From Arundinibacter roseus (GTDB lineage Bacteria > Bacteroidota > Bacteroidia > Cytophagales > Spirosomataceae): a stretch of 64,000 nucleotides of DNA. The translations under genes and the position numbers were made by a program. Location: contig NZ_SMJU01000002.1 in NCBI RefSeq assembly GCF_004348825.1, forward strand, positions 62,001-126,000, read 5' to 3'. Shown here one piece after another: positions 12,365 to 28,222 of the stretch (position 1 is its first letter; each line of letters opens with the position of its first letter). The notes beneath the pieces were generated by a model that was not told the origin of the DNA, ran no database searches, and saw nothing but the letters and a program-made list of their open reading frames with translations.

Positions 12365-15300
12365 TTTTCAATTCCAATAAGGTACGATTAAGGCAAACCT
12401 GCTCGAAACCTTCGACAAAATCTACATTATATTTCAATTCCAATAAGGTACGATTAAGGCGTGTTGGGCGAGAATGATGATGATCTGCCGTTGACGCATT
12501 TCAATTCCAATAAGGTACGATTAAGGCGTTTCCGACCGAAAGCAGCCGTCAGGATACGCACCATATTTCAATTCCAATAAGGTACGATTAAGGCTTGTGA
12601 GCTTCTGTGATTCTAAAACCCCTAAATCTTATTTCAATTCCAATAAGGTACGATTAAGGCTGAAGGCATGATTAACGTAACACGCCTAGAAGTCATATTT
12701 CAATTCCAATAAGGTACGATTAAGGCCCGGGGGTGATTCTTGTTGATTGATATTTATTTCATTATTTCAATTCCAATAAGGTACGATTAAGGCAATCCCG
12801 GCAGACGTTAAGCACCACAAAGCACACTTATTTCAATTCCAATAAGGTACGATTAAGGCATCAACTGCCGCTGCACCTGTGCCTACCTTCCCGCATTTCA
12901 ATTCCAATAAGGTACGATTAAGGCAAGACCTCATCCACGAATTTTTCAGTTGCTACACCGCATTTCAATTCCAATAAGGTACGATTAAGGCAAAGCATAT
13001 TCGACAATATCAAGAGCGATACTTACATTTCAATTCCAATAAGGTACGATTAAGGCCCTCTGTGGCTGATGTGGAGACACGCTTTAAAAACCTATTTCAA
13101 TTCCAATAAGGTACGATTAAGGCGGCCTCTTTTAAACCCTTAATCCTGTCATCCGATTATTTCAATTCCAATAAGGTACGATTAAGGCCTAGAAAAAGCA
13201 TTAAAATCAGGCACGTATTCAGAATTTCAATTCCAATAAGGTACGATTAAGGCAATTTTCACGAAGACTGCATGTATCGAATTAAACCATTTCAATTCCA
13301 ATAAGGTACGATTAAGGCAACGACGTAGCACCTATTACGGTATTCCGAATCCCATTTCAATTCCAATAAGGTACGATTAAGGCACCCTCTAATAAGTTTC
13401 GTAGACTATCTACGTTGTATTTCAATTCCAATAAGGTACGATTAAGGCGCATGCAGCCAACCAACAAAATAGTAGTTCTGAATCTATTTCAATTCCAATA
13501 AGGTACGATTAAGGCCTGCAAAGCCCGCAAAAGCCCCCGCCGCACTTTCTCCATTTCAATTCCAATAAGGTACGATTAAGGCGCTTCTTTGTCCTGTCCG
13601 AAGTGATACCCGCCTTTTTATTTCAATTCCAATAAGGTACGATTAAGGCACTACAATCCTGATGCACACGTCAGGGGAATGGATATTTCAATTCCAATAA
13701 GGTACGATTAAGGCAACTACATTTCACCGAAGCCGAAAAAGCCGAGGTGCATTTCAATTCCAATAAGGTACGATTAAGGCGTAAGGTGTTTTGCCGGAAA
13801 CAGGGTAAGAAAATTGCATTTCAATTCCAATAAGGTACGATTAAGGCGAATCCGCCCGAAAGGAGTTCAAAATAGCGGACATTCATTTCAATTCCAATAA
13901 GGTACGATTAAGGCTTCATCGATAATTACAAGTGTGTAGGAGCCTAAAAGATTTCAATTCCAATAAGGTACGATTAAGGCATGCAATAACCGCAATCAGG
14001 GGCGCTTTGGATAATCTATTTCAATTCCAATAAGGTACGATTAAGGCCCTAAGCGCCCCGGCTCTTGCCCTGCTTAAATCTTTCCATTTCAATTCCAATA
14101 AGGTACGATTAAGGCGCCTGTGCAAGAGCTGCAATCGCATCGGCAAGTTCATTTCAATTCCAATAAGGTACGATTAAGGCTTCCTCAGTGGGAATTGGTG
14201 ATACCTCCATCGGAATCATTTCAATTCCAATAAGGTACGATTAAGGCAGGCGAATGAGGTCCACAGGGTTTTTGTTGGGTCAAATTTCAATTCCAATAAG
14301 GTACGATTAAGGCTTTTAGAGGTTGCATCACTATTCGGAATTACAGAAAAATTTCAATTCCAATAAGGTACGATTAAGGCATCGACCGATTGAGGTCTGA
14401 ATGGTTATACCGCCCATTTCAATTCCAATAAGGTACGATTAAGGCCTCGAAACAGGAAAACTAAATTCGTTTGCTAAACTTATTTCAATTCCAATAAGGT
14501 ACGATTAAGGCTAACAAATCCACAGGTTAGAAGGAACCCTAAGCGCATTTCAATTCCAATAAGGTACGATTAAGGCATACCGGAATAGCTGATGGGTAGA
14601 ACGCCAATTTCATTTCAATTCCAATAAGGTACGATTAAGGCACATGAAAATTCTTGAAGAAATGTGGTTTGATTACCTATTTCAATTCCAATAAGGTACG
14701 ATTAAGGCAACCCGCTACTTGGTCAACGAGCTTTCATCTATTTTATTTCAATTCCAATAAGGTACGATTAAGGCAGGAAGAAAAGGAAGCCCCAAAGGAT
14801 GTAGAGTTATTTCAATTCCAATAAGGTACGATTAAGGCCCAAATACCGCCCGTTCACAGCGCAAGAGGCGCTATTTCAATTCCAATAAGGTACGATTAAG
14901 GCAAAAGCAGGAAGGCGCAGTGAGTAAGGAATGGATACTATTTCAATTCCAATAAGGTACGATTAAGGCCAAGTTGTTGAGATTGAAAAGGTAAACGGCA
15001 GGATATTTCAATTCCAATAAGGTACGATTAAGGCAAAAATATTGCTTCACTTGCAGTCGTTGAATTGTTATTTCAATTCCAATAAGGTACGATTAAGGCT
15101 GTAAAAGGTTATAGGTCGGCCCCGGTACAACTTCATTTCAATTCCAATAAGGTACGATTAAGGCCTTACGAAGTATAAACCATCTTCCCGAACCTCAAAA
15201 TTTCAATTCCAATAAGGTACGATTAAGGCTCTATCAAATTTTGACAAAGCACTTGACAAAGCACTATTTCAATTCCAATAAGGTACGATTAAGGCAAGGA

Positions 15301-16826
15301 TTTAATCCGCAACGCTAAACCCGTACCGATATTTCAATTCCAATAAGGTACGATTAAGGCACGAGTCCGGCAAGGTATATGGCTGTTAGGTAGTTGCATT
15401 TCAATTCCAATAAGGTACGATTAAGGCTCAAATACGACCCTTCAAAGGGAAGGTCAATGTTATTTCAATTCCAATAAGGTACGATTAAGGCTCCCGCTGT
15501 ACTTGCTTTCCGCCCATTCAATTAAATCCATTTCAATTCCAATAAGGTACGATTAAGGCATTGCAGGAACATCAGGACTTCAAGAATTACCAAAAAATTT
15601 CAATTCCAATAAGGTACGATTAAGGCATTAATAAACGCAACAACTACACCCCCAAAGAAAAATTTCAATTCCAATAAGGTACGATTAAGGCTTTGTAGGT
15701 TACGAAATAACCGAACGGCATGCAGAAAATTTCAATTCCAATAAGGTACGATTAAGGCAACTAGGTATTCATCATAATCAAAACCCCAAACAATAATTTC
15801 AATTCCAATAAGGTACGATTAAGGCTTGGAGCAATTCCATTGGACTTATAAACCACTGTGTAATTTCAATTCCAATAAGGTACGATTAAGGCGGGCCAAA
15901 AGCCCCTTTTTTTTGCGTACCTCCAACAAAATTTCAATTCCAATAAGGTACGATTAAGGCGATTTGCGGCAAGTATAATCTAGTCTACGCCCAAATATTT
16001 CAATTCCAATAAGGTACGATTAAGGCCTTAAAAGCTATGCATAAAAACATAATGCCACCCTAATTTCAATTCCAATAAGGTACGATTAAGGCTCAATGTA
16101 CCAGCAGGGGCGTTAAATGTCAGACTATAATTTCAATTCCAATAAGGTACGATTAAGGCTACGCATGCATTAATCAGAATCCAGGAATCGGCTATATTTC
16201 AATTCCAATAAGGTACGATTAAGGCCTAAAATATAGGGCTTATTAATAACCTGACTTGCTATATTTCAATTCCAATAAGGTACGATTAAGGCATCCATAT
16301 CTTTGACCAAAGCCTCTACGCTTTCTTCATTTCAATTCCAATAAGGTACGATTAAGGCGGTGGTAATGGAAAATAGTTGCCGCCCCAAATAATTATTTCA
16401 ATTCCAATAAGGTACGATTAAGGCCTTTCCAATTGCCGCCTTTATCCCGATATTGAACTTCTATTTCAATTCCAATAAGGTACGATTAAGGCGTCCCGTA
16501 ATTTACATCCCAACAAAGGAGCGATACGAATTTCAATTCCAATAAGGTACGATTAAGGCTGGAGCAATTCCATTGGACTTATAAACCACTGTGTAATTTC
16601 AATTCCAATAAGGTACGATTAAGGCTCCCTGCCGTATCCGTCACAACAGCCGCTCCATTAAGATTTCAATTCCAATAAGGTACGATTAAGGCCTAAGCCC
16701 ACGTTCCTTGCCGTTTATGGGGAACTAAATTTCAATTCCAATAAGGTACGATTAAGGCGCTTTAGGTGTAGCACTTTTGCGGGGGTTGATTTACTTATTT
16801 CAATTCCAATAAGGTACGATTAAGGC
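12365..16826 (-). CRISPR. Type I-B CRISPR array: 68 repeats, 67 spacers
   Basis: By reading through I count 68 copies of a 30-bp repeat (plus strand begins ATTTCAATTCC and ends ACGATTAAGGC) with spacers of about 34-38 bp (mean about 36). All copies read identical except the leftmost, whose first base is T instead of A. On the minus strand the repeat ends ATTGAAAT, the 8-nt 5' handle expected after Cas6 cleavage in type I-B. Transcription is therefore right to left, the leader is at the right next to cas2, and the degenerate repeat marks the old, leader-distal end. Spacer numbering in this report counts from the leader. Spacers 4 and 15 are the same sequence apart from one terminal base. Confidence 0.99.
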
Positions 16827-17030: not shown

Positions 17031-17294
17031 CTACAAAAAGTTGTCCGTACTCATGCGTTCCTGACCAATCACTTCCTTTTCCAGCCATCGCTCATCCCGG
17101 CTTTTGAACAGGATCAAACTGTCCTCTTTTTCCTGCATGATCTGCCGCGCACCGTTCAACATTTCCTTCAATTTTACATCTGTAATTTCTCCCTCAAATA
17201 CCGAATTCTGTATCCAATTCAGGTACTTTCGGCAGTGTTTGAGCATTTTTCCTACCCGCTTTTCACCCATATCATACACCAGTATTACATACAT
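17031..17294 (-). CDS. cas2: CRISPR-associated endoribonuclease-fold protein Cas2
   Basis: An 87-residue protein starting MYVILVYDMGEKRVGKMLKH, with the conserved first-strand Asp at residue 8 of the ferredoxin-like fold. Length is typical. Cas2 forms the structural core of the Cas1-Cas2 integrase that inserts new spacers at the leader end. It is the last gene of the minus-strand operon, 36 bases after cas1, and sits next to the leader. Confidence 0.95.
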   Translation of the reverse strand: MYVILVYDMGEKRVGKMLKHCRKYLNWIQNSVFEGEITDVKLKEMLNGARQIMQEKEDSLILFKSRDERWLEKEVIGQERMSTDNFL

Positions 17295-17330: not shown

Positions 17331-18335
17331 TCACCACATCATTTTGAATGGGCGGTAGGTTTCTATGCCCAATAGGTGCTTGCTTAGTTTGTAACATTCC
17401 AGTTTTACCAAATGCCGATAACTGACGTTCCGACCCAACGATCTATGCTTGAAGGTCTCTTTTAACCGATCTTCCAGCGCCTGCACAAATAGTTTGCGCC
17501 CGCCTTCTTTTAAGGTACAGCCGTTTAGCTCCATCCGAAAGTCCGTAGCCTGAATCTGCCGCTTGTTTAATAGGCTGAATATAGTTCGATCGATGAGTAA
17601 GGGCTTGAAGATCTCGGCCAAATCAAGCGCCAGTGAGTACCGCCTTGCCCCCGGTTCGTGTAAAAAACTGATCGTAGGGTTGAGTTGGGTGTGGTAAATT
17701 TGGTCCAGACACACGGTATAGCACATCATATTGCCAAACGATATCAACGCATTGACTTCATTCAGCGGGGGCTGTTTCGTACGATTCCCCATCTCAAAGT
17801 CTGTGATGATCGCCCCGAAGGCCTCGTAGTAAGTTTGCCGGATGTTGCCTTCTATGCCCATCAGCTCGTCAATGCGTTGAGCATTGGGTATGAGCAAAAT
17901 ATACTGACTGATGCGCTCAATCGGAACCGAAAGGTCCCGGCCCCGCGCCTGATAGTATTTCAGATTTCTCAGAATATTGGCAGCAGCGCCTTCCACCAGC
18001 AACCGGGCAATCTCCATGCGCTTTTTGGGTGTCAGGTACGCACGCGTCTGTTCTACCTGCATCTTGCCAGCCAACAAATACTCCTTGGCCATAAACGACC
18101 CGGTATAGTGTTCGTAATAGTCGAAAAAATGCACCGAAACATGATTTTTACCCAGAAAATTGTACATCGCCGAGTTAGCATCCAAACTGCCAAAGCAGTA
18201 CAGATTGTCCACACCCTCAATCGGAATATGGCGCGGTTGCCCTTCGTTGCCGTGTTCATCCACAGGCGTAAAACACAGCGTGTTATCCTTGCGACTCAGT
18301 CGGCCCGGATTGAAAAGATAGTAGCTTTTTTTCAT
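17331..18335 (-). CDS. cas1: CRISPR-associated integrase Cas1 (type I-B)
   Basis: A 334-residue protein starting MKKSYYLFNPGRLSRKDNTL. The N-terminal beta domain precedes the helical catalytic domain. Metal-binding residues are E162 (MGIEGNIRQTYYEAF), H226 (FLHEPGARRYSL) and E241 (DLAEIFKPLLIDR), the standard Cas1 triad. It integrates prespacers together with Cas2, and Cas4 (encoded two genes upstream) normally selects PAM-containing ends. It starts 9 bases after the AAA ATPase gene, implying co-translation. Its base composition is GC-rich (34 of 60 bases in one sampled line), unlike cas3-cas8. Confidence 0.97.
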   Translation of the reverse strand: MKKSYYLFNPGRLSRKDNTLCFTPVDEHGNEGQPRHIPIEGVDNLYCFGSLDANSAMYNFLGKNHVSVHFFDYYEHYTGSFMAKEYLLAGKMQVEQTRAYLTPKKRMEIARLLVEGAAANILRNLKYYQARGRDLSVPIERISQYILLIPNAQRIDELMGIEGNIRQTYYEAFGAIITDFEMGNRTKQPPLNEVNALISFGNMMCYTVCLDQIYHTQLNPTISFLHEPGARRYSLALDLAEIFKPLLIDRTIFSLLNKRQIQATDFRMELNGCTLKEGGRKLFVQALEDRLKETFKHRSLGRNVSYRHLVKLECYKLSKHLLGIETYRPFKMMW

Positions 18336-18344
18336 AGAAAAGGG

Positions 18345-19538
18345 TTAGTAAAGAAATCCAAACAACCAAAGCGGAAGAGTATTCCCAAATCCGGTTTCGC
18401 TGTCATCTTTCACCAAATAAGCGTCTTGAACTCCCTCAATTTGTTTTTTGCCTTTATGTTTTCCTCCCACTTCAAATGTATAGATTCCGTCAACCAAAAA
18501 ATCGCTCACGGCGGACTCCTGTACCGAATGCCCGTAACTTACCTGATTCAAAAAAAAGGTTTCCCGCAGATTTCCGATATCCGGTTTTTGTAGAGATAGC
18601 GCATAGGCTAAATTGGTATTTTCAAGGTAGATTTTTTCAGGTTTTTGCAAAACAGTCATTCCGGTTCCGCCCCGATATAGCAACTTTATCAATTTTGCCT
18701 GCTCCAAAAAATGCAGATAATTGTTGACCGAATTGCGATGAATGCCGCTTTTATCGGCCAATGCGGATACATTGGGCTTGAAGGGCACATTTTCGGCCAA
18801 TACGTAGAGCAATTGGAGCATTTTTTTAGCATTTCGAATATCAAAATCTTTTAGTTCGGCCATATCATACTCCACAATCATCCTGATCAACTGCTGAATG
18901 CGCCGTCCGTAGCCGCCGGTATCTTCCCTGAAAAAGGGGTAATAGCCTGAACGAAGATAGGCTTCAAAATGCGCCAAAGGCCGAAATCCCACCGGAAAGA
19001 AAGATTTCCATCCTTGATTTTCCGAAAGCAATAAAGGCAACGTCAGCGCTTCCACCGTGATGATTCCCTCAAAAGCCAGGTATTCGCGGTACGACATGCC
19101 CGGTAGCTCATACATCAAAACCCGTCGGCTCAGATCCACTTCCTGCCGGGAAATATCAACGATGGACGAGCCCGTAAATACCACCTGCAAATCGGGATAA
19201 AGGTCATAGAGGTTTTTGAGGTGCGTAGCCCAATGAGGGTATTTGTGAACTTCGTCCAAAAACAACACCCTTCCCCCTTTTCGCCGGAATTCTGCGGCGG
19301 TTTCCACCAACGAATGTGTCGTAAAATAGAGGTCGTCCAGGGTAAAATATGCCGCTTCGGTGGCCGACTTACCCAATGATTTCAACCGCTGAAGCAGCAA
19401 GGTAGTTTTGCCGGTTCCGCGTGCGCCTTTGATGCCGATCAGGCGGTTATTCCAATGAATCTGTCCGTAAAGTCCGCGCCGAAAAGAATCCATCGTAAAT
19501 TCCGTCAAACGCTCCGAGGTTGCCAGTAATGTTTCCAT
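18345..19538 (-). CDS. AAA-family ATPase with DUF4143 domain, embedded in the cas operon
   Basis: About 397 residues from the ATG at 19536-19538 (METLLATSERLTEF); 27 further open codons upstream overlap cas4 and are not protein-like. The Walker A motif is GIKGARGTGKTTLLLQRL near residues 36-53, Walker B is GRVLFLDEVHKYPHW, and the sensor is VFTGSSIVDI: an AAA_14-type core. A winged-helix-like segment follows (SALADKSGIHRNSVNNYLHF). The C-terminal DUF4143 part has DFLVDGIYTFEVGGKHKGKK, a PD-(D/E)XK-like arrangement (D...ExGGK). Such ATPases are widespread orphans of unknown function and are not standard Cas proteins. It lies between cas4 and cas1, 9 bases before cas1, so a role in or near adaptation is suggested but unproven. 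Confidence 0.88.
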   Translation of the reverse strand: METLLATSERLTEFTMDSFRRGLYGQIHWNNRLIGIKGARGTGKTTLLLQRLKSLGKSATEAAYFTLDDLYFTTHSLVETAAEFRRKGGRVLFLDEVHKYPHWATHLKNLYDLYPDLQVVFTGSSIVDISRQEVDLSRRVLMYELPGMSYREYLAFEGIITVEALTLPLLLSENQGWKSFFPVGFRPLAHFEAYLRSGYYPFFREDTGGYGRRIQQLIRMIVEYDMAELKDFDIRNAKKMLQLLYVLAENVPFKPNVSALADKSGIHRNSVNNYLHFLEQAKLIKLLYRGGTGMTVLQKPEKIYLENTNLAYALSLQKPDIGNLRETFFLNQVSYGHSVQESAVSDFLVDGIYTFEVGGKHKGKKQIEGVQDAYLVKDDSETGFGNTLPLWLFGFLY

Positions 19539-19592
19539 TTTGCATATTATAAAATGCAAATATAACTTAATTATGCATAACGAAATGTGCAT
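19539..19592 (-). promoter_or_regulatory. TGCAT-rich inverted repeats before the ATPase gene
   Basis: Directly upstream of the ATPase start is the inverted repeat TTTGCAT (19539-19545) - 8 bases - ATGCAAA (19554-19560). The palindrome TTATGCATAA follows (19571-19580), then a further TGTGCAT (19586-19592). This 59-base, very AT-rich gap is the largest inside the kinase-to-cas2 block apart from ordinary spacers. It looks like an operator/promoter giving the ATPase (and cas1-cas2) separate control; that is inference. Confidence 0.4.
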
Positions 19593-19597
19593 TTTCC

Positions 19598-20149
19598 CTA
19601 CTCTTCCCCAATCCAGCAAAAATCAAAATAACTGCATGAGCGGCACTTGCTGACGGGCAATCGCGGCGGACAGTGCTCTTTGGCCAATAGTTCCCCAATT
19701 TCGTGTACCCACAGCTCCATCTGTTTTTCTTCGACTTCGTCCAGCGTTACCCGCTCGGTAAGGCGCAGTTTAGGATACTCGATCAGTCCATGACTGACCG
19801 CTACGCCATTCTTACGCAACAGATACAAGTAAAACTGCACCTGCGCCGTGTGCGCTTTTTCTTTGGCATTCGACTTTTTGGTTTCATGAACAATGCCCTT
19901 TTTAGCGTCGAAAAAATCAATTTTAGCCGTTAGAACTCTCACCACTCCCAACCCGTTAGCGGCGGGCAATTCGTACGAAACCGCCACTTCCTGATTTTTC
20001 TCGGCGCGTTGCGGATAGCTTTCTTCACCAATGAGCTTGCCCTCATACACGATGTCAGACGTATGCTCCATGCGGATCGCGTGGGCGTGCAGCCACATCT
20101 CCCGCTTGCAGATATGGTAAAGGTTGACGAGAGTGGCGTTGATGTTCAT
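19598..20149 (-). CDS. cas4: CRISPR-associated exonuclease Cas4
   Basis: A 183-residue protein with the Cas4/AddB-type iron-sulfur cluster ligands: C14 (YHICKREMWL) and C169, C172 and C178 (CRSCSYFDFC). RecB-like nuclease residues are D78 (KIDFF), E89 and K91 (HETKK), and the Q-x3-Y motif at 105-109. Cas4 trims prespacers and enforces PAM choice with Cas1-Cas2. The start codon is 3 bases beyond the stop of the kinase-like gene, so the two are translationally coupled. An additional Cys at 160 is not a standard ligand. Confidence 0.96.
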   Translation of the reverse strand: MNINATLVNLYHICKREMWLHAHAIRMEHTSDIVYEGKLIGEESYPQRAEKNQEVAVSYELPAANGLGVVRVLTAKIDFFDAKKGIVHETKKSNAKEKAHTAQVQFYLYLLRKNGVAVSHGLIEYPKLRLTERVTLDEVEEKQMELWVHEIGELLAKEHCPPRLPVSKCRSCSYFDFCWIGEE

Positions 20150-20152
20150 AGG

Positions 20153-20671
20153 TCAGCGGTTCAAAAAATACTGCCTGAACTCCTCCATTTCCTGTTTCTC
20201 GATGTCGAGATACTTCTGGAAAATAGTTTCTCCTACCTGTTCTCGAAGGGCCGAAATCCCTACATCAATGAGCCTTAATCCCTTGTCTGTCAAAAGGATA
20301 TTGTCAAAAGCTAAGCCGCCGATTCCCGAAGGACGCTTAATGTCCCGGTGTACAAACCCAGCCTGATGGAGTTGATGAAGCTCATCCTCAAACACATCGA
20401 GCCACAACTCCCTGATACTCTGTTCGTAAGCCCTGAAATCCATTGGTTTGAGCCTTTCCATTACCAGCAGCTCAGCTTGTAAGTTTTCGTCAAAATCCAG
20501 ACGAATAAACCTAGCTACCAGAGAATTAACTTCATTTGCAAATTTCATTTTTGCCGCTTCTGAACCAATATCCGACCGGGTATCGCCCACAAAAAGCTTG
20601 GCAACTTCCGAATCCGAGAGCGCAATGACCACATTGTTTGCACCCGATGATAAGCGATTGGGGTAGTTCAT
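20153..20671 (-). CDS. Miniature protein-kinase-like protein inside the cas operon
   Basis: A 172-residue protein with kinase landmarks in order: a glycine-loop remnant (SSGANNVV, 8-15), the VAVK-like lysine K25 (EVAKLF), a candidate alphaC glutamate E47, hinge VMERL (70-74), catalytic loop HRDIK (108-112), the catalytic-loop Asn at N124 (FDNILL) and DVG (136-138) in place of DFG. Two features are odd. About nine extra residues (RPSGIGGLAF) separate the loop Asp/Lys from Asn124, where canonical kinases have D-x-K-x-x-N. The protein also ends about 34 residues after DVG, lacking most of the C-lobe. It lies 104 bases after cas3 and 3 bases before cas4, in the same operon. It is not a known Cas component; activity and target are unknown. 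Confidence 0.8.
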   Translation of the reverse strand: MNYPNRLSSGANNVVIALSDSEVAKLFVGDTRSDIGSEAAKMKFANEVNSLVARFIRLDFDENLQAELLVMERLKPMDFRAYEQSIRELWLDVFEDELHQLHQAGFVHRDIKRPSGIGGLAFDNILLTDKGLRLIDVGISALREQVGETIFQKYLDIEKQEMEEFRQYFLNR

Positions 20672-20775
20672 AGGGGAATGGGGATTGATGTTTACAGGAT
20701 GATTATAGAAATTGTTAACAAGCTAAGAATAGTCAAGAGATTGATTGGTTCTGTAATCAGAAAAGTAATTAATGA

Positions 20776-23592
20776 TTATAAAAATTGAGTTTCATTACTC
20801 TCGAATTTTTTGTCATCCATACCAAAGTTTACATCATAAAAATCCTTCCAGAAATGAATGTATTTATATCCAAACTCACTTTTAACTTCATCTGAAAAAT
20901 GAACAATTTGCATTTCTATTTTTTTATTTGCAAACAATGAAAAGATGAATTTGGAAAGAATCCCCTGTAATATTTTCTCTCCAATCTTTTGTTTTATAAA
21001 CTCTCGTTTATTTTGAATAAATGATACATACAGGTTGAAGACTTCTTCACCATTAATGCAATAATCAAGAGTTGGTTCTATACCATGAATTTTCAAAAAG
21101 GTTAATTCATTTTTTGAAAAAATCAAATCCTTTGTACCATTGACGATTCCTTCTACTTCAATCGGGATGTTAAGCGGGATAAAACATGAAATATTTTCTT
21201 GGTCTATTAACTTAAAATCCCAATGAATTGATTTGAAATGTAGCTTTTCAATTTTAGAGCGATAAAACTTTAATTGTTCGCTGTGATTTTCATTGCTGAT
21301 TTTATCTGAAGTACCCCAATAGTTTATTTTCGCAAAAACTGAATTATACAAAAAATCAAAGTCCTTATTCTTTAAAATGTTCTGATAATCAGTTGTTTTC
21401 AACTTTTTTGTCTCCTGATAGCGCAAATCCTGCCCATAAATTATTCGCTCTTTGTTATAGTTAAAGAGGTACAAAGTACATTCTTTTTTATTAACATTTC
21501 GATTAATACGACCTGCTAACTGTTCTTCACTGTCAATCATAGAACGGTCCTTAAAGCCTAAGTCCATGTCAATATCTACGCCTGCTTCCACCACTTGCGT
21601 TGTAATCAACAAAACTCGTTTTTGTCGGGTAGCCGGATTTTTCAGGAGATTAATAATTTCTTTTCTCCGATGTTCTAAAATTGTGCCAGAAAGCACCAGT
21701 ATTTCATCAAAGAAGTTGTTATTGATTTTACTTAATTCACCATAAAATTCAGTCGCAGACTTCTTAAAAATGAACTCAACGATACAATACACACTTCCTT
21801 TTGGCTTGGCTTGGCCAAAATCATAAGTAGCATATTCTTTCGATTTTTCTAAAAGCGTTGTTGCAATTTCTGTTAACTCTAAATCGGTACGCTCGAACAA
21901 ATCAAAGTTAAACTTTACTCGCTCACTGAAATTGGGGTTCAGGAAATAATCTTTTTTGGCATTGGGCAGAAGATAAACAAAGTCGCTAACATACTCTTTA
22001 TCAATAACCTGCAAATTTCCTAACTTGGGTAAAGTAGCAGACATCAAGATAAATTTGATGTTGTAAAGCTTGGCATAGTGGGAGATGAAATACAGCATCT
22101 TATCCCAATGGGCGGGGTCATAAGATTGAAGCTCGTCAATCACCACAATTGAATTGGCCAATCGGTGAAGCATATAGTTAGCTTCTTTTTCATTGGTTTT
22201 CAGCAAGTCAAAAAACTTAACGTGCGAAAGTAAGCAGAATGGATAATTGACAAAAAGGTTATCAATATAGTTTTTCTTTTCATCTCCATAAGCTCCATCT
22301 ACTTGTTCTTCCTCTATTTGTTGCTTGTAACCTGCCTTTGAGTGAAGTTGAACTAACTCATTTTCAGTTAGCCCAAGCGTTTCTTTAATTGCGGTATAGG
22401 TTTGCGTGATAAGAGTTGTAAATGGAAAAACATAAAAAACTTTGTTAGTTCTGCCTGCACTGGCTTTTAGTAGTTCAACAGTAGCCAACATAGAAAGATT
22501 AGTTTTACCTCCACCGGTTGGGGCTTCAATGTAAAATAAGTTATTATGGCTATTGGTTCTAATGTTTCTGATTACTTCCAAAGCCATTTCCATTCGCAAC
22601 AAATTCAAATTTTCGTTGCTCTGATCTGTGGGATTTTGCAGTTCATAGCCGATCTCTAATTGTTGGTAAGTAGCTTTGTTGTAGTTCACTTTGCCATTTA
22701 AAAGTGAATTGCTAGAACTTACAAAATTGTACAATTTAGTGATTCTTTCTGGGCTCAAAACACCAAATTCTTTTATTTCAATGCCCGTCATATACTGGCC
22801 TGACGCTAAATAATCAGAAGCTGTGAGCAAAGAAAAACTAAGACGTACTAACGAATAGAGAGAAAAAGGCTTTAACAAATTTGGTACTGTATCAAGTTTT
22901 TCAAAAGCATCTTTCAGATGTAGTGGCAGTAAATCGGTAATCTGAGGTGCTATTTTATACTGATAATTAGCTACGTACACTTTCATGTTAGCGACCTCAT
23001 CGGATGTAAACCCAATCTTTTCTTTATATTCGTCATTCAAATATTTACCATGATGCTTAAAAATAGGATACGAAAGCATTAGTGTAGCCAACATGGCAAT
23101 TGGGTTGAACTGAGATTCTACTTGTACTCTTGCTTCGTCAATGTGCTTGACAATAAATAAATAAGCCCCTAAACTTGAATGATGGGTAGAGAGAACGCTT
23201 TTTGGTTTTTCTTTGCCCCTAAAATGGGGATTATTCATTTTATCAGGGCTTGCCTGAAAGTTCTCGTTGATTTTTCCAAAATCATGGAAGACGACGGTAT
23301 TGACAAAAAGCCGTTTGAGAAAATCACCTAACTTTTCACTTTCTATTTTCTGATTGCCTAGAAAATCATGGATTAGGTTATCAATCACGACATCTAGTCC
23401 ATGATTTTTCGTGAGCAACTCAAATTTTTTTAGCACTAACTCAATATGCTCTTGAAGAGTTTCAGGCGGGAGTGGATTAACCGCATTTTTGGGTGATATG
23501 TGTGCATAATATGAATCTGCATCTATTAGAAAGGTCTTAATAGAAGGCGTTGCATTTAAAATATCGGAAACCGTTTTATAAGAGTTGGACAT
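20776..23592 (-). CDS. cas3: CRISPR-associated helicase-nuclease Cas3 (HD + SF2 helicase)
   Basis: A 938-residue protein. The N-terminal HD nuclease has H49, the H103-D104 pair with K107 (FHDFGKINENF), H137-H138 (THHSSLGAYL) and D260 (LTASDYLAS). The SF2 helicase has Walker A APTGGGKT at 357-364, DELQ at 486-489, SAT at 518-520, and later VEAGVDIDMD and EQLAGRINRN motifs. Cas3 is recruited by target-bound Cascade to unwind and degrade DNA from the displaced strand. All key residues appear intact. Its start overlaps the end of cas5 by 17 bases. It is AT-rich (18 G/C in one sampled 60-base line). Confidence 0.96.
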   Translation of the reverse strand: MSNSYKTVSDILNATPSIKTFLIDADSYYAHISPKNAVNPLPPETLQEHIELVLKKFELLTKNHGLDVVIDNLIHDFLGNQKIESEKLGDFLKRLFVNTVVFHDFGKINENFQASPDKMNNPHFRGKEKPKSVLSTHHSSLGAYLFIVKHIDEARVQVESQFNPIAMLATLMLSYPIFKHHGKYLNDEYKEKIGFTSDEVANMKVYVANYQYKIAPQITDLLPLHLKDAFEKLDTVPNLLKPFSLYSLVRLSFSLLTASDYLASGQYMTGIEIKEFGVLSPERITKLYNFVSSSNSLLNGKVNYNKATYQQLEIGYELQNPTDQSNENLNLLRMEMALEVIRNIRTNSHNNLFYIEAPTGGGKTNLSMLATVELLKASAGRTNKVFYVFPFTTLITQTYTAIKETLGLTENELVQLHSKAGYKQQIEEEQVDGAYGDEKKNYIDNLFVNYPFCLLSHVKFFDLLKTNEKEANYMLHRLANSIVVIDELQSYDPAHWDKMLYFISHYAKLYNIKFILMSATLPKLGNLQVIDKEYVSDFVYLLPNAKKDYFLNPNFSERVKFNFDLFERTDLELTEIATTLLEKSKEYATYDFGQAKPKGSVYCIVEFIFKKSATEFYGELSKINNNFFDEILVLSGTILEHRRKEIINLLKNPATRQKRVLLITTQVVEAGVDIDMDLGFKDRSMIDSEEQLAGRINRNVNKKECTLYLFNYNKERIIYGQDLRYQETKKLKTTDYQNILKNKDFDFLYNSVFAKINYWGTSDKISNENHSEQLKFYRSKIEKLHFKSIHWDFKLIDQENISCFIPLNIPIEVEGIVNGTKDLIFSKNELTFLKIHGIEPTLDYCINGEEVFNLYVSFIQNKREFIKQKIGEKILQGILSKFIFSLFANKKIEMQIVHFSDEVKSEFGYKYIHFWKDFYDVNFGMDDKKFESNETQFL

Positions 23593-24340
23593 AATACTCC
23601 GAACCAGTTAGATGAAATAGATTATCAATATTTGCAGACTGCTTTATGCCAAAAGTAGTAAAAACAGAATCCCCCAAAACGTATTGAAATAAAGTGAGAT
23701 CGAAGCCTCTAGGAAGTCTTTCAAAGTACATGAATGGAGTTTCTTCCTCCCAAAAAGACATGAAATCAAACAATGGAGTAGTTTTCTGTTGATTGATAAT
23801 ATCTTTTTTAATGAAGAGCGTTTTGATTTTGAAAATACCGAATGGGTTTTCAATAGCTTGATAATCATGCTCTTGAAAATTTTCCCACCAAGCGGCAAAT
23901 TCATTTTTACCGAAATAGGGCAAGTATTCAGCCTTACCCTCTTTAAGGTATTCATACAGCAAGTGTTGCTTATCGTTCTCTAAATCCAGCAACGCATAAA
24001 CCCGATAACCGGGTTTAATGAGCGTTGCCTCTTCGGTCAAATAGGTAGAGCCATTATTGGCGTAACCCGCTGTATTTGAGTATTTAATGACAGTTTTTTG
24101 GAAATTTCCTTTTTCGTGATCCAGAGGCTCAATCCCTATTTTCAGGTCTTTAAACTCCTCATAATATTGTGGTACTTCCCCTTTTCTTTTGTAGCCTTCT
24201 AAGCCTACAATAGCCCCAAAAATGCCCAATAGGGCAGGTTTATGGAGCATATTATAGGATAGATTAACAGTATTGTTGGCATCGGGCTTGCGGAAAAAGC
24301 CAAAATCACTTTTTAAATCAATCGATACTAATTTTTCCAT
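23576..24340 (-). CDS. cas5: Type I-B Cascade subunit Cas5
   Basis: A 254-residue protein starting MEKLVSIDLKSDFGFFRKPD, with the Cas5 N-terminal RAMP strand and the following N-rich segment and GIFGAIVGLEGYKR near residues 38-51. Cas5 binds the 5' handle of the crRNA and caps the Cas7 backbone. It lies 14 bases after cas7 and overlaps cas3 by 17 bases, so translation is probably coupled. Length and position agree with Cas5b/Cas5h. Confidence 0.92.
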   Translation of the reverse strand: MEKLVSIDLKSDFGFFRKPDANNTVNLSYNMLHKPALLGIFGAIVGLEGYKRKGEVPQYYEEFKDLKIGIEPLDHEKGNFQKTVIKYSNTAGYANNGSTYLTEEATLIKPGYRVYALLDLENDKQHLLYEYLKEGKAEYLPYFGKNEFAAWWENFQEHDYQAIENPFGIFKIKTLFIKKDIINQQKTTPLFDFMSFWEEETPFMYFERLPRGFDLTLFQYVLGDSVFTTFGIKQSANIDNLFHLTGSEYYVQLL

Positions 24341-24354
24341 TGTGTCTTCCGGAT

Positions 24355-25275
24355 TTATAGTTCCAATTTGATTGCATCCGCAGGTTCATTGACTATTTTG
24401 GTGATACCCGTGTTGTAATACAACTCAATTCTTTCGATTTCTCCTTTCACGTGTTCTTTGGATAATATTTCAGTAACTTTCTGAAAATCAATTGTTTTGT
24501 CATTATTTATAGTAACCAATTCCACGAAAGAAGGAAGCACCAATTTTGAGTTTTCTTTCAACTGAACCCAAAGCAATAGTTCGTTTTCTGTACCCGCTTT
24601 CGCTGCGGAATCATAGTAAGTAACCCCCTTTCTTAGTCCTTCTTTCAATTTCTCAATATCATCAATTGAGATTCCATCCACTCCCACACGCTTTACATCG
24701 TCTTCAATATTTCTAGGATTCACAGAAAAGTGATGCACATAATGCCCTTCTTGAAGCTTTGACTGTGTGCCAAGCGTAGTCATGGTGCTATCGTTATTTT
24801 TCTCACTCGGATTTCTAAATGGCGACATGATTTGTTCAGAATAAATCACATTTTCGCCGAAGCGATTAACACCATGCGTTATTTGACATGCACCATGGAT
24901 TGAAATATTGGTTTTACCTGCATAAGTGCCTCCGAAAAGACGAACATCTATATAGCTCATTATACTTTTAAGTACTTCTATCCTGAGTTTATTCTTATCA
25001 GAAATTTTGAAAATATCTTTTCCAAAGTGGCTTTCAAATGTTTCGTCTAATGTTCTGGGACTCATATTTTCATCAAAGGTCTTTGAATAGAAAACATTAG
25101 AATTGAGATTTTTTTTCCAATAGTTTCTTACCGACCATTTTAAGGTTTTATCAGTCGCATATACTGTTCCATTTGGTAAGGTTCGAGGTTGATGCGAGAA
25201 ATCAGCATTATAGTTTGAATTGATAGATTTGATAATGGCACAGCCAAATACACGATTATTGAACAAGTTGCTCAT
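24355..25275 (-). CDS. cas7: Type I-B Cascade backbone subunit Cas7 (Csh2-like)
   Basis: A 306-residue protein opening with RVFGCAIIKSINSNYNADF and PRTLPNGTVYATDKTLKW, the recognisable Csh2 N-terminus, and containing GACQITHGVNRFGENVIYSE near residues 127-147. Multiple Cas7 copies coat the crRNA spacer. It lies 26 bases after cas8b and 14 before cas5. Composition is AT-rich like its neighbours from cas8b to cas3. Confidence 0.94.
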   Translation of the reverse strand: MSNLFNNRVFGCAIIKSINSNYNADFSHQPRTLPNGTVYATDKTLKWSVRNYWKKNLNSNVFYSKTFDENMSPRTLDETFESHFGKDIFKISDKNKLRIEVLKSIMSYIDVRLFGGTYAGKTNISIHGACQITHGVNRFGENVIYSEQIMSPFRNPSEKNNDSTMTTLGTQSKLQEGHYVHHFSVNPRNIEDDVKRVGVDGISIDDIEKLKEGLRKGVTYYDSAAKAGTENELLLWVQLKENSKLVLPSFVELVTINNDKTIDFQKVTEILSKEHVKGEIERIELYYNTGITKIVNEPADAIKLEL

Positions 25276-25301
25276 GATTGATAAGGTTTGAAAGTTTTTG
25301 A

Positions 25302-27200
25302 TTAGTTATTATCTTTTTGTTTGTCAGCAAAGAGCTGGTTTTCTGAAAAAACGCCTGCAAGTAACTCTGGCATAAAGTCTTTCATGTTAATACTCTGTTC
25401 ATTTTCTTCCCTGTAACTCAATACAAACGCTGCTGCGTTTCTAAATTTTTTAGAGAAGTTTTCATGCCTATATCTATCAAAATCCTTGGCAATAGCCTTT
25501 CTAAATTCTGATAATTTAGACTGTTGCAAATACGGTTCGAGTAGACGATAGCTTGTATCATCAGACCTGCTTTTTCGTAGAATATAGTCTATCACCTGCC
25601 CTGCGGCAAAGGCAAAATCTGCATCAGTAGCGGTGTCAGTGTCGGCTTCGCCCATTGAAAGGCGAGCCACAAATTCTTGATATTGTTTTAGTTTACTGGC
25701 CATTGTTATTTCATTTTTGCGGTTTTTGGGTTGAAAATTTTCGTATAAACTGAACCAGATGTTCAATTTTTCTTTGATGCTATATCCATTGTTCTGCTTT
25801 AAATCGTCTTTGATATGGCTAAAAACCATATCCGAAAAAATGTGCTCATCAATTCCTTGCCTTTTTGATTTATAGACAAAATCATACACAGCTTTTCGGT
25901 ATTTCGAAAATGCTTGAAAAGTATTCCCTAAATGTTCATAATCTTCATTTTTCAAGTCACTGAAATAGTCCAAACGAAGATATTTGTTTTGAAGTAAAGG
26001 TTTAAAAACAGCTTGCTCAAAGGTAAAAATATTATTGATTTTTGGATAAAAAACAAAAGATTTTCCTCCCTTTTCTTGAATTTCAAAAAAATTCTCAATT
26101 TGTGCATCAAGCTCATATTCAAACTTACTTACAAAATCGAAGTCTTTGAAAACTATATCTTTTCCAACATACCAGTTTATTAAATAGTAGTTGTTGAAAT
26201 CCTTTTTATAGTTTTCCCAAAGTGAATTGATTATTTCTGTGAAGGTAAGCAATCTATTTTGGTTGTAGAGAGCAATGACTTTCTCTTGAAGTTCTTCTTG
26301 GTAAATAAATAAAGGGAAGGGATTTGGTATTACTTTGGGTTTTGCACTTACAACGTCTTTGAATTGCTTCAAAATATTTGCATCTACACCGTTTATCTTG
26401 TATGTCTCAAAAGTTGCTGTTTTGTGAGACATAAAGGGTTTCTTATCAGGAAAAGTTGAAATAAAATCGTTATCGTTAAATTCATTAGGTGGATATTCTC
26501 CCATGTAATATCTTTCATAAGCATCTTTCCACTCATCTAATGGAATATCTGTGAGATAAACTCTTATATAGTCTTTTTCCTTTAATTCTGATAATATAGA
26601 AACATCAATAATTTCTTGGACATCTTTTTTCTTTGAAATATCTTTTTTAATTTTCATTTTAGGTATTTCTTCAAAAATTTGGTTTAAGCAAAATTTTTCA
26701 AAATTAGTAATTTTGCTTTCTAAATCTTGGTTAATCACATCCAAGCAAAGTTTCTGAGCATTTATAAAGTAAGCAGGTATGCTTTCTTTAACTAACCCCA
26801 TTTTATATAATTTAATTTGTAGTTCAAGTTCATCTTTATCATTTGGATCATCCATTTTACTTTTGATCTCTCTAATGATGGTTTCAATCTTTTGCTTATC
26901 GCTTCCCAAGCTAAAATTAAAAGCTATTGAAAATGGTGACGCAGAATGAATTTTTTGCTTTTTGTCGAATTTTTGTTGCTGATTCATAGATATATATGAA
27001 CTATATCTCTCAAATGACAATATTTGTGATAGGTCTTCATCCAATTCAGCGACGCCATCATAGTAGACATATTTTTCTATTCGTGAATCTCCTTCCTGTG
27101 CGATATTAGTTAGTATGTGTAACCCTTTGCTTGGTCTGTAAGCAAGATTCTTAAAATCCTCACCAAGGTTTTGCGTAAAGTTGACTATTTCTTTTATCAT
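25302..27200 (-). CDS. cas8b: Type I-B Cascade large subunit Cas8b (Csh1-like)
   Basis: A 632-residue protein beginning MIKEIVNFTQNLGEDFKNLA, typical of Csh1/Cas8b. The sequence is otherwise poorly conserved, as is usual for large subunits, which recognise the PAM and help recruit Cas3. The C-terminal 130 residues are helical and could serve the small-subunit role often fused to, or produced from, Cas8b (inference). It follows cas6 after a 112-base AT-rich gap and precedes cas7. GC is low (19 of 60 in one sampled line). Confidence 0.9.
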   Translation of the reverse strand: MIKEIVNFTQNLGEDFKNLAYRPSKGLHILTNIAQEGDSRIEKYVYYDGVAELDEDLSQILSFERYSSYISMNQQQKFDKKQKIHSASPFSIAFNFSLGSDKQKIETIIREIKSKMDDPNDKDELELQIKLYKMGLVKESIPAYFINAQKLCLDVINQDLESKITNFEKFCLNQIFEEIPKMKIKKDISKKKDVQEIIDVSILSELKEKDYIRVYLTDIPLDEWKDAYERYYMGEYPPNEFNDNDFISTFPDKKPFMSHKTATFETYKINGVDANILKQFKDVVSAKPKVIPNPFPLFIYQEELQEKVIALYNQNRLLTFTEIINSLWENYKKDFNNYYLINWYVGKDIVFKDFDFVSKFEYELDAQIENFFEIQEKGGKSFVFYPKINNIFTFEQAVFKPLLQNKYLRLDYFSDLKNEDYEHLGNTFQAFSKYRKAVYDFVYKSKRQGIDEHIFSDMVFSHIKDDLKQNNGYSIKEKLNIWFSLYENFQPKNRKNEITMASKLKQYQEFVARLSMGEADTDTATDADFAFAAGQVIDYILRKSRSDDTSYRLLEPYLQQSKLSEFRKAIAKDFDRYRHENFSKKFRNAAAFVLSYREENEQSINMKDFMPELLAGVFSENQLFADKQKDNN

Positions 27201-27312: not shown

Positions 27313-28134
27313 TCACCCACTCCCCATCACCTCACAGCACCCATTTCCCATAGAAGAAAACCGCCCAAACCCACCCAGATACCCCACTTCCAGCAGTTCG
27401 GCGGGGGCCGTGAGTTCAAACTGAAAGTTGTGGTAGCCTACTACCTTTGTTTCGGCGTCCTTATTTTCCTTTACCTTCATTTTGCGGACTTTCAGCCGCT
27501 CGGGCTCCGTCAATAGCCTGAACCTGACCAGGCGTTCGGCCAGGTGAGCGTCCATTTCGGGCAGGGCGTTGGGGGCTATTGAGCGGTATTTGTCTACCAG
27601 ATTCAGGGCAAAAAGTCCGGCAAAGGCCTCGTCGTCAGGGCGCAGGTATTGATCCAGGCCATTGTGCTTGTCGGCCACTATCATCGGCGACAGTGTCCGA
27701 AAGGTAGCCGTAGTTGTACCCATCCATGTAGTATCTGTGGGTAACGTTTCAACGCGCTCTACTACAAAATCTGCCTGATGTTCGTGGTTGTACAAGCTCA
27801 GCCGCTGATCCTGAAACAATCCAACAATGAAATGTTCGGCGGCTTCTTCTACATAAAAGGATAGTACGACTGTACAGATTTCTGAACGGATAGTCATATA
27901 CGTATCGCCCGGACGAATCCGATCCATGCGGGGAATGTGCAGCGATGAGAAGGTAAAATGTTTAAAACTCTTGGTGCTTTGTGCCGGGCTGTATCCGGTC
28001 TGATGCAAAAAGGTAGCGTAGGCTTCGTCGGCCTGCCGTAAAAGCCCGTAGAGCCAGCTTTGCAGGGGATACTGATAGTTGAAGAGCAAGGGCTGACGGT
28101 CACGAAGGGGGCGGAGGTAAAGTTTAAAGCGCAT
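27313..28134 (-). CDS. cas6: CRISPR pre-crRNA endoribonuclease Cas6
   Basis: I use the ATG at 28132-28134 (MRFKLYLRPLRDRQPLLFNY), giving 273 residues; an upstream ATG at 28158 adds eight residues. The protein has the paired RAMP folds and ends with the glycine-rich loop GYLGGFGRFSSMGNGCCEV that defines Cas6. It cuts each repeat to leave the AUUGAAAU 5' handle. It is the first gene of the minus-strand cas operon, divergent from the WYL regulator. It is GC-rich (35 of 60 in one line), contrasting sharply with cas8b just downstream. Confidence 0.93.
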   Translation of the reverse strand: MRFKLYLRPLRDRQPLLFNYQYPLQSWLYGLLRQADEAYATFLHQTGYSPAQSTKSFKHFTFSSLHIPRMDRIRPGDTYMTIRSEICTVVLSFYVEEAAEHFIVGLFQDQRLSLYNHEHQADFVVERVETLPTDTTWMGTTTATFRTLSPMIVADKHNGLDQYLRPDDEAFAGLFALNLVDKYRSIAPNALPEMDAHLAERLVRFRLLTEPERLKVRKMKVKENKDAETKVVGYHNFQFELTAPAELLEVGYLGGFGRFSSMGNGCCEVMGSG

Positions 28135-28222
28135 AGAGTATGGATTTGTCGGGAGCATAGTTACAGTTTTTACAAGATAAGTACAATTAATTTGTGCCTT
28201 ATTTTTAAAATATTATTCTTAT

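Follow-up and report, generated by a model that had tools for sequence, protein, structure and literature searches.

Small genes beside cas4 have a precedent: 23S_rRNA_IVP genes were reported in 2013 to lie near cas4 as single-gene passengers (PMC3936711), in an account whose main text does not contain the word "kinase". Among the literature matches listed, no title or abstract opening reports a kinase among the adaptation genes of a type I-B system. In the window (the whole analyzed stretch of DNA, 64,000 nucleotides), the type I-B operon has the order cas6-cas8b-cas7-cas5-cas3-kin-cas4-AAA_14-cas1-cas2, followed by the array (68 repeats); it contains two extra genes, one on either side of cas4, i.e. 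the kinase-like gene here termed kin and a gene for an AAA_14/DUF4143 ATPase (see Table 1). With a probability of roughly 0.75, kin is an independent single-gene passenger of the Bacteroidota that changes its genomic address and was caught in an accessory slot beside cas4. The observations on which this reading is based are the predicted fold, the conserved residues, the scattered loci, the empty or swapped sites, and the separate survival of kin and cas genes.

Table 1. Features of the type I-B region in the window (positions counted from the first nucleotide of the window).
Feature	Position	Strand	Evidence or remark
CRISPR array, 68 copies of a 30-nt repeat	12365..16826	+	repeat detection
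cas2	17031..17294	-	PF09827, E 2.5e-21
cas1 (type I-B)	17331..18335	-	TIGR03641, 439.2 bits versus cut-off 304.1
AAA_14/DUF4143 ATPase, second extra gene	18345..19538	-	PF13173, E 2.6e-27
cas4	19598..20149	-	PF01930, E 1.8e-43
kin, minimal kinase-like protein, 172 aa	20153..20671	-	ORF; weak Pkinase match, E 5.7e-4, under cut-off; AlphaFold2 kinase fold
non-coding stretch 5' of kin, 104 nt	20672..20775	-	missing at the empty cas3-cas4 site of Runella L168
cas3 (type I-B)	20776..23592	-	PADLOC Cas3b, E 1.6e-241
cas5	23576..24340	-	TIGR02592, 93.7 bits versus cut-off 97; PADLOC Cas5b, E 3.6e-27
cas7	24355..25275	-	PF05107, E 1.6e-35
cas8b	25302..27200	-	PADLOC Cas8b, E 7e-67
cas6	27313..28158	-	PF01881, E 6.3e-20

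The first-pass annotation of the window had described a protein-kinase-like reading frame between cas3 and cas4 that ends three bases from cas4 in a type I-B operon and carries the landmarks K25, HRDIK, N124 and DVG; all of this was confirmed, the gene being located on the minus strand. The frame starts with ATG and ends with TGA, the spacing to cas4 is exactly 3 nt (TGA CCT ATG) and that between cas3 and kin 104 nt; from the 3-nt gap, co-transcription of kin with cas4 is plausible. Since full-length relatives with approximately 60-80% identity occur across the Bacteroidota, kin is not a chance reading frame. Within the 104-nt stretch, TAGCTTG can be read as a relaxed match of the TAnnTTG type. 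The AAA_14/DUF4143 gene of the window, for which the ATG at 19538 is the likely start rather than that of the listed frame (18345-19619), apparently has a box of its own: just 5' of it lies TATATTTG, which we take to be a promoter-type motif. As to base composition, the block cas8b-cas7-cas5-cas3 (20776-27200) has a GC content of 31-37% versus 45-52% for cas6, kin, cas4, AAA_14 and cas1, and the same step is found in Rhabdobacter (L004); kin looks as if it were located at the seam of an exchanged effector module.

Structure prediction, by which the annotation had proposed to judge the kinase assignment, returned a kinase fold: the AlphaFold2 model (pLDDT 87.8, pTM 0.83; alignment of 31 rows, with L006 and L033 not included and L025 and L030 dropped for a stop in the stretch) matched kinases with a Foldseek probability of 1.00 and aligned with the RNase L kinase domain over 154 residues at 2.4 Å (VIA-align Z 15.1). 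The two-lobed fold with the N-lobe Lys-Glu pair is present, the C-lobe in part: the protein comprises the N-lobe and the start of the C-lobe (HRDIK at 108-112, DVG at 136-138) to just past DVG, where the remaining 34 residues end in one long helix (23 residues, 148-170). Neither an activation segment ending in an APE-like motif nor helices F-I follow DVG in the sequence or in the model. The sequence models all stayed below their cut-offs, PF00069 with 19.8 bits versus 31.7 (E <= 0.01 in 16 of the 31 family members scanned, best 7.8e-5), PrkT and Bud32 by far. Bud32, RIO and APH chains were not among the best 50 VIA rows, which were drawn from the Foldseek top 1000, and their absence there counts nothing against them.

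Among the relatives, Lys25, Glu38, Asn124, Asp136 and Gly138 are invariant (85/85; the 86 aligned sequences minus the divergent L129). The window copy and 80 of the 85 relatives retain the catalytic Asp of HRD, and the other five, to which the cas-embedded Rhabdobacter protein belongs (HRS), have H, S or E instead; the Lys position of DxK is occupied by K in 38, R in 24 and Q in 12 of the 85. Three distant paralogues (L096, L123 and L129; 30-41% identity) were also encountered, two of which (L096 and L123) have FVFND in place of FVHRD and keep the Asn and an Asp-Thr-Gly. To judge from the conserved residues, kin likely binds ATP, and we infer catalysis; as the chain ends without anything to form an activation segment or helices F-I, its phosphate acceptor would more likely be a small molecule, or one docked partner protein, than a broad range of proteins.

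Matches to kin were obtained in 52 of 200 family genomes, 54 of 390 genomes of the order sample and 12 of 395 genomes of the phylum sample (the samples overlap, and a few matches are fragments); the 34 named loci include those of Dyadobacter, Runella, Emticicia, Fibrella, Rudanella and Rhabdobacter. When clustered by shared neighbours, the 107 distinct loci (two duplicates, the three distant paralogues and one fragment, L167, left out) fell into 55 contexts, a number that may be over-split given that 10 of the 43 singleton contexts had less than 2 kb on one side. The cas operon is one of these contexts and accounts for 8 loci; the other 99 lie outside standing cas operons, in 54 clusters. Within the flanks examined, no cas gene (E < 1e-6) or array was found at any other kin locus, with flanks of varying length and cas queries taken from one family alone.

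The eight cas-linked loci belong to type I-B operons of four genera of one family and show two arrangements, both of which touch cas4: cas3-kin-cas4 in the window, in Rhabdobacter (L004; no array detected within about 8 kb after cas2) and in L094 (genus g29), and cas4-kin-cas1 in L092, L095, L107 and L108 and, as a remnant, in L125 (all genus g5). Cas operons are over-represented among the kin loci by position, and eight of 107 in one kind of operon, at two positions adjoining the same gene, is far above random placement. It is this distribution, together with the 3-nt spacing in the window, that speaks for a true accessory role of kin in CRISPR adaptation, in which the kinase or its ATP-bound state would tune Cas4-Cas1-Cas2 and GxxExxY and AAA_14 proteins would be alternative modulators in the same slot. 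The reading, which is considered unlikely, draws on two further features. In the kin tree, for which 86 of the 113 oriented loci were used (two duplicates and copies with frameshifts, stops or less than 145 aa left out), the cas-embedded copies are confined to two groups. Moreover, the strict box TAnnTTTG, presumably a promoter box of the Bacteroidota type, precedes none of seven cas-embedded copies (the relaxed form, three of seven), as compared with 18 of 91 other copies at a distance of up to 80 nt (5/91 antisense, 3/91 further upstream, shuffle expectation 3.1); the embedded copies may in consequence depend on the operon. Conversely, most members of a cas gene family would be found in cas loci, and only 8 of 107 kin loci are; 99 lie elsewhere, and 38 same-family cas1 loci were examined that are without kin.

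What the gaps beside cas4 accept was tabulated in 46 loci (the eight chosen for kin and 38 from part of the hits of a cas1 search; cas3 was not located in 12). Between cas4 and cas1, kin is present in four and as a remnant in one, a GxxExxY (PDDEXK_3) gene in five (L183, L185, L188, L190 and L199), an AAA_14-type ATPase gene in four, a 23S_rRNA_IVP gene in one (L192) and PRiA4_ORF3 in one; 30 have no extra reading frame of 80 aa. Between cas3 and cas4, kin is found in three and elsewhere an AAA_14, DUF1016, Y1_Tnp or AbiEi-like gene, whereas the gap between cas1 and cas2 does not exceed about 120 nt in the 44 loci with both genes seen and has no room for an extra gene. Eight representative occupants were run against Pfam and the others assigned by resemblance, the AbiEi-like protein having no Pfam match; the names GxxExxY and AbiEi are our presumptive labels. 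The AAA_14-type genes of the cas4-side gaps were recognized by Pfam (L173, L177), similarity (L180, L203) or resemblance (L192, L195, L197). Hairpin-like AATCCTGT/ACAGGATT repeats surround the aligned GxxExxY genes (L183, L185, L188, L199), and no AATCCTGT repeats were seen beside the kin copies aligned with GxxExxY copies of the same slot. A Y1_Tnp gene occupies the cas3-cas4 gap of L200, and L201 and L171 have genes resembling it; such gap cassettes may perhaps be mobilized in a REP-type manner.

Close relatives show the slot empty or swapped. In Runella L168, whose Cas3 is 86% identical to that of the window over 331 residues, cas3 and cas4 overlap (TAATG) with nothing in between; in the window, the boundaries of the two genes are the same, but kin and a 104-nt stretch lie between them. 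The cas4-cas1 gap of genus g5 holds kin, a GxxExxY gene or nothing: L095 (kin) and L185 (GxxExxY) share 96.8% nucleotide identity in cas4 and 93.1% in cas1-cas2, and the gene between them is swapped. The cas1 tree contains three sister pairs of kin versus GxxExxY loci (SH-aLRT 90-92), one of them via a kin remnant, and implies seven changes of kin presence over 46 rows and eight of the cas4-cas1 occupant over 17. All trees being quick searches with many weak branches, the number of independent kin insertions is uncertain; there may have been a single capture with later moves around cas4. In the pair L107/L108, kin has a dS of 0.059 versus 0.40 for cas1 and 0.46 for cas2, so that it appears, on the basis of the sequences, to have a partly separate recent history; the raised identity reaches beyond kin into the last (3') part of cas4 and the beginning of cas1, a pattern that flanking recombination would produce. 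A passenger of cas loci is expected to be present at a given gap in some operons while their close relatives have this gap empty or filled by another gene, and this is what was found for kin.

Moreover, kin and the cas genes survive apart. In L106, an intact kin lies between remnants of cas4 (19 aa, 79%, E 1.7e-5) and cas1 (16 aa; weak when taken alone, E 0.045), and its genome (G135) is absent from the 57 genomes with a cas1 match: the operon was lost around a surviving passenger. L125 shows the reverse, as full-length cas4, cas1 and cas2 are present and kin is reduced to residues 114-172. Both cases speak against an adaptation accessory, as does the co-occurrence with cas1, which does not go beyond linkage: of the 200 family genomes, 18 carry both kin and cas1 at E <= 1e-20 (counted by hand; some kin matches are fragments or a distant paralogue and some cas1 matches are 46-49% identical), which is not significant (p 0.29), and without the eight linked genomes 10 have both versus 34, 39 and 109 (p 0.70).

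Of the 19 kin pairs tried for dN/dS, dS was saturated in eight, including all three with the window copy, so that the figures on selection concern other copies: ten non-cas pairs with estimable dS gave 0.017-0.094 (0.020-0.094 in the four with dS below 1; the six with dS above 1 are rough), and one cas-embedded pair 0.43, from few changes.

A partnership of kin with CRISPR-Cas, which the first-pass annotation had brought up as unusual, is therefore unlikely: 99 of 107 loci are elsewhere, the slot is swapped or empty in close relatives, and each side persists without the other. The tabulation of genomic neighbours suggested in that annotation gave a divided answer, as the scatter of the loci weighs against an association, but the over-representation of cas operons weighs for it. 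Indeed, the passenger explanation is thin at this point, since tolerance of the gaps alone would not predict one family beside cas4 so often. An extension of the accessory idea regards the cas4-side gaps as an exchangeable cartridge slot, in which the truncated kinase, the GxxExxY nuclease-like protein and the AAA_14 ATPase act as alternative modulators of spacer acquisition; if true, it would mean a kinase wired into CRISPR adaptation, but it is considered very unlikely.

Similarly improbable is the view that kin acts on its own in defence or abortive infection, as PD-T4-6 kinases do, and is found together with CRISPR in defence loci. Such a role would agree with the kinase fold, with weak local matches to models of PD-T4-6, the best of which has E 2e-5 and extends over 47 residues, and with the type I methyltransferase gene adjoining the copy L009; the PD-T4-6 matches, however, span 34-82 residues around the catalytic loop. 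The near neighbours (105 proteins) were matched by 197 PADLOC models and the far controls (80 proteins, at least 4.5 kb away) by 29, tallies in which one protein can match dozens of models and of which the best 25 are listed. Against a defence role, no model was found on more than three of the 105 near proteins among the matches listed, and the far controls also matched pAgo, Gabija and other models; the two tallies reveal no clear difference, and kin may have a mild defence link. The Pfam families of the near neighbours are largely metabolic or structural (best 25 of 153 listed), which likewise does not favour defence. The 105 immediate neighbours come from 60 of the 99 non-cas loci; among the matches listed, no Pfam family was shared by more than three of these proteins. 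A partner gene for kin was rejected, as no neighbour recurs across contexts.

Phage or plasmid cargo is dismissed because kin had no match in the plasmid, phage and viral collections (the viral scan was prefiltered on six short peptides), a result that speaks against the defence reading as well. A kin element with conserved flanks or terminal repeats was rejected because, as judged by eye, similarity does not extend past the reading frame, and neither a target-site duplication nor a mobilizing enzyme was found at kin.

In the kin tree, the copies of Dyadobacter, Emticicia, Runella and Fibrella group largely by genus and those of g5 form two separate groups; the grouping points to a change of address mainly within lineages with some older split, and the history of kin looks chiefly like this and not like rampant transfer. 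In Dyadobacter G192, kin is located close behind a tRNA-Leu gene; in G165 and G119 the two sides of this site adjoin with no kin between them, and G165 has its kin elsewhere. Relocation of kin is thus seen inside this genus. The two flanks of the G192 site are apart in most of the 48 Dyadobacter genomes, so gene order is fluid there anyway. In L024 (1326-2160), a partial second kin (residues 122-170) lies directly 5' of the full copy, possibly a tandem duplication or a decayed copy.

According to the passenger reading, kin would encode a truncated, ATP-binding protein-kinase-like protein with a cellular role of its own; purifying selection would maintain the gene for this role, and it would change its genomic address as one gene. 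In the family of the window, the gaps on either side of cas4 take up unrelated single genes, and kin would have been captured there, probably on two or more occasions; the embedded copies are probably read with the operon. In genus g5, kin would be exchanged for a GxxExxY gene, the probable route being recombination within cas4 and cas1, the conserved genes on its two sides.

Compared with known systems, kin shares the fold class of the PF00069 eukaryotic-like Ser/Thr kinases and of the RNase L/IRE1 kinase domains, which are among its nearest folds. Like these it has a beta-rich N-lobe (Lys25, Glu38), a hinge, the HRD catalytic loop, Asn124, and DVG in the place of DFG; it differs from canonical kinases by its 172 residues, the lack of APE, the single long helix after DVG, and the 11 residues between HRDxK and Asn, where canonical kinases have two. 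The Bud32/KEOPS kinase (TIGR03724, 193 positions) is also short, but the local match is weak (kin residues 63-148) and scores 22 bits versus a cut-off of 125. PD-T4-6 has the catalytic-loop motif in common with kin, but its models comprise 292-564 positions, of which kin covers short pieces (e.g. 119-156 of 415) rather than the full profile. What emerges is a well-conserved minimal kinase family of the Bacteroidota that remains under the cut-off of every curated model matched and moves as one gene. It also cautions that one operon is not enough to name a cas-embedded gene a CRISPR component, while the fast turnover of the cas4-side slot yields, in nature, pairs of operons that agree in their cas genes and differ in the extra gene, which suits them to showing whether such passengers affect spacer acquisition. 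A parallel is found in the 23S_rRNA_IVP passengers: according to that account (PMC3936711), these too are small single genes beside cas4 that also occur outside cas loci, from which kin differs by its kinase fold. Passenger genes beside cas4 are already on record for 23S_rRNA_IVP, and kin adds a further member to that kind.
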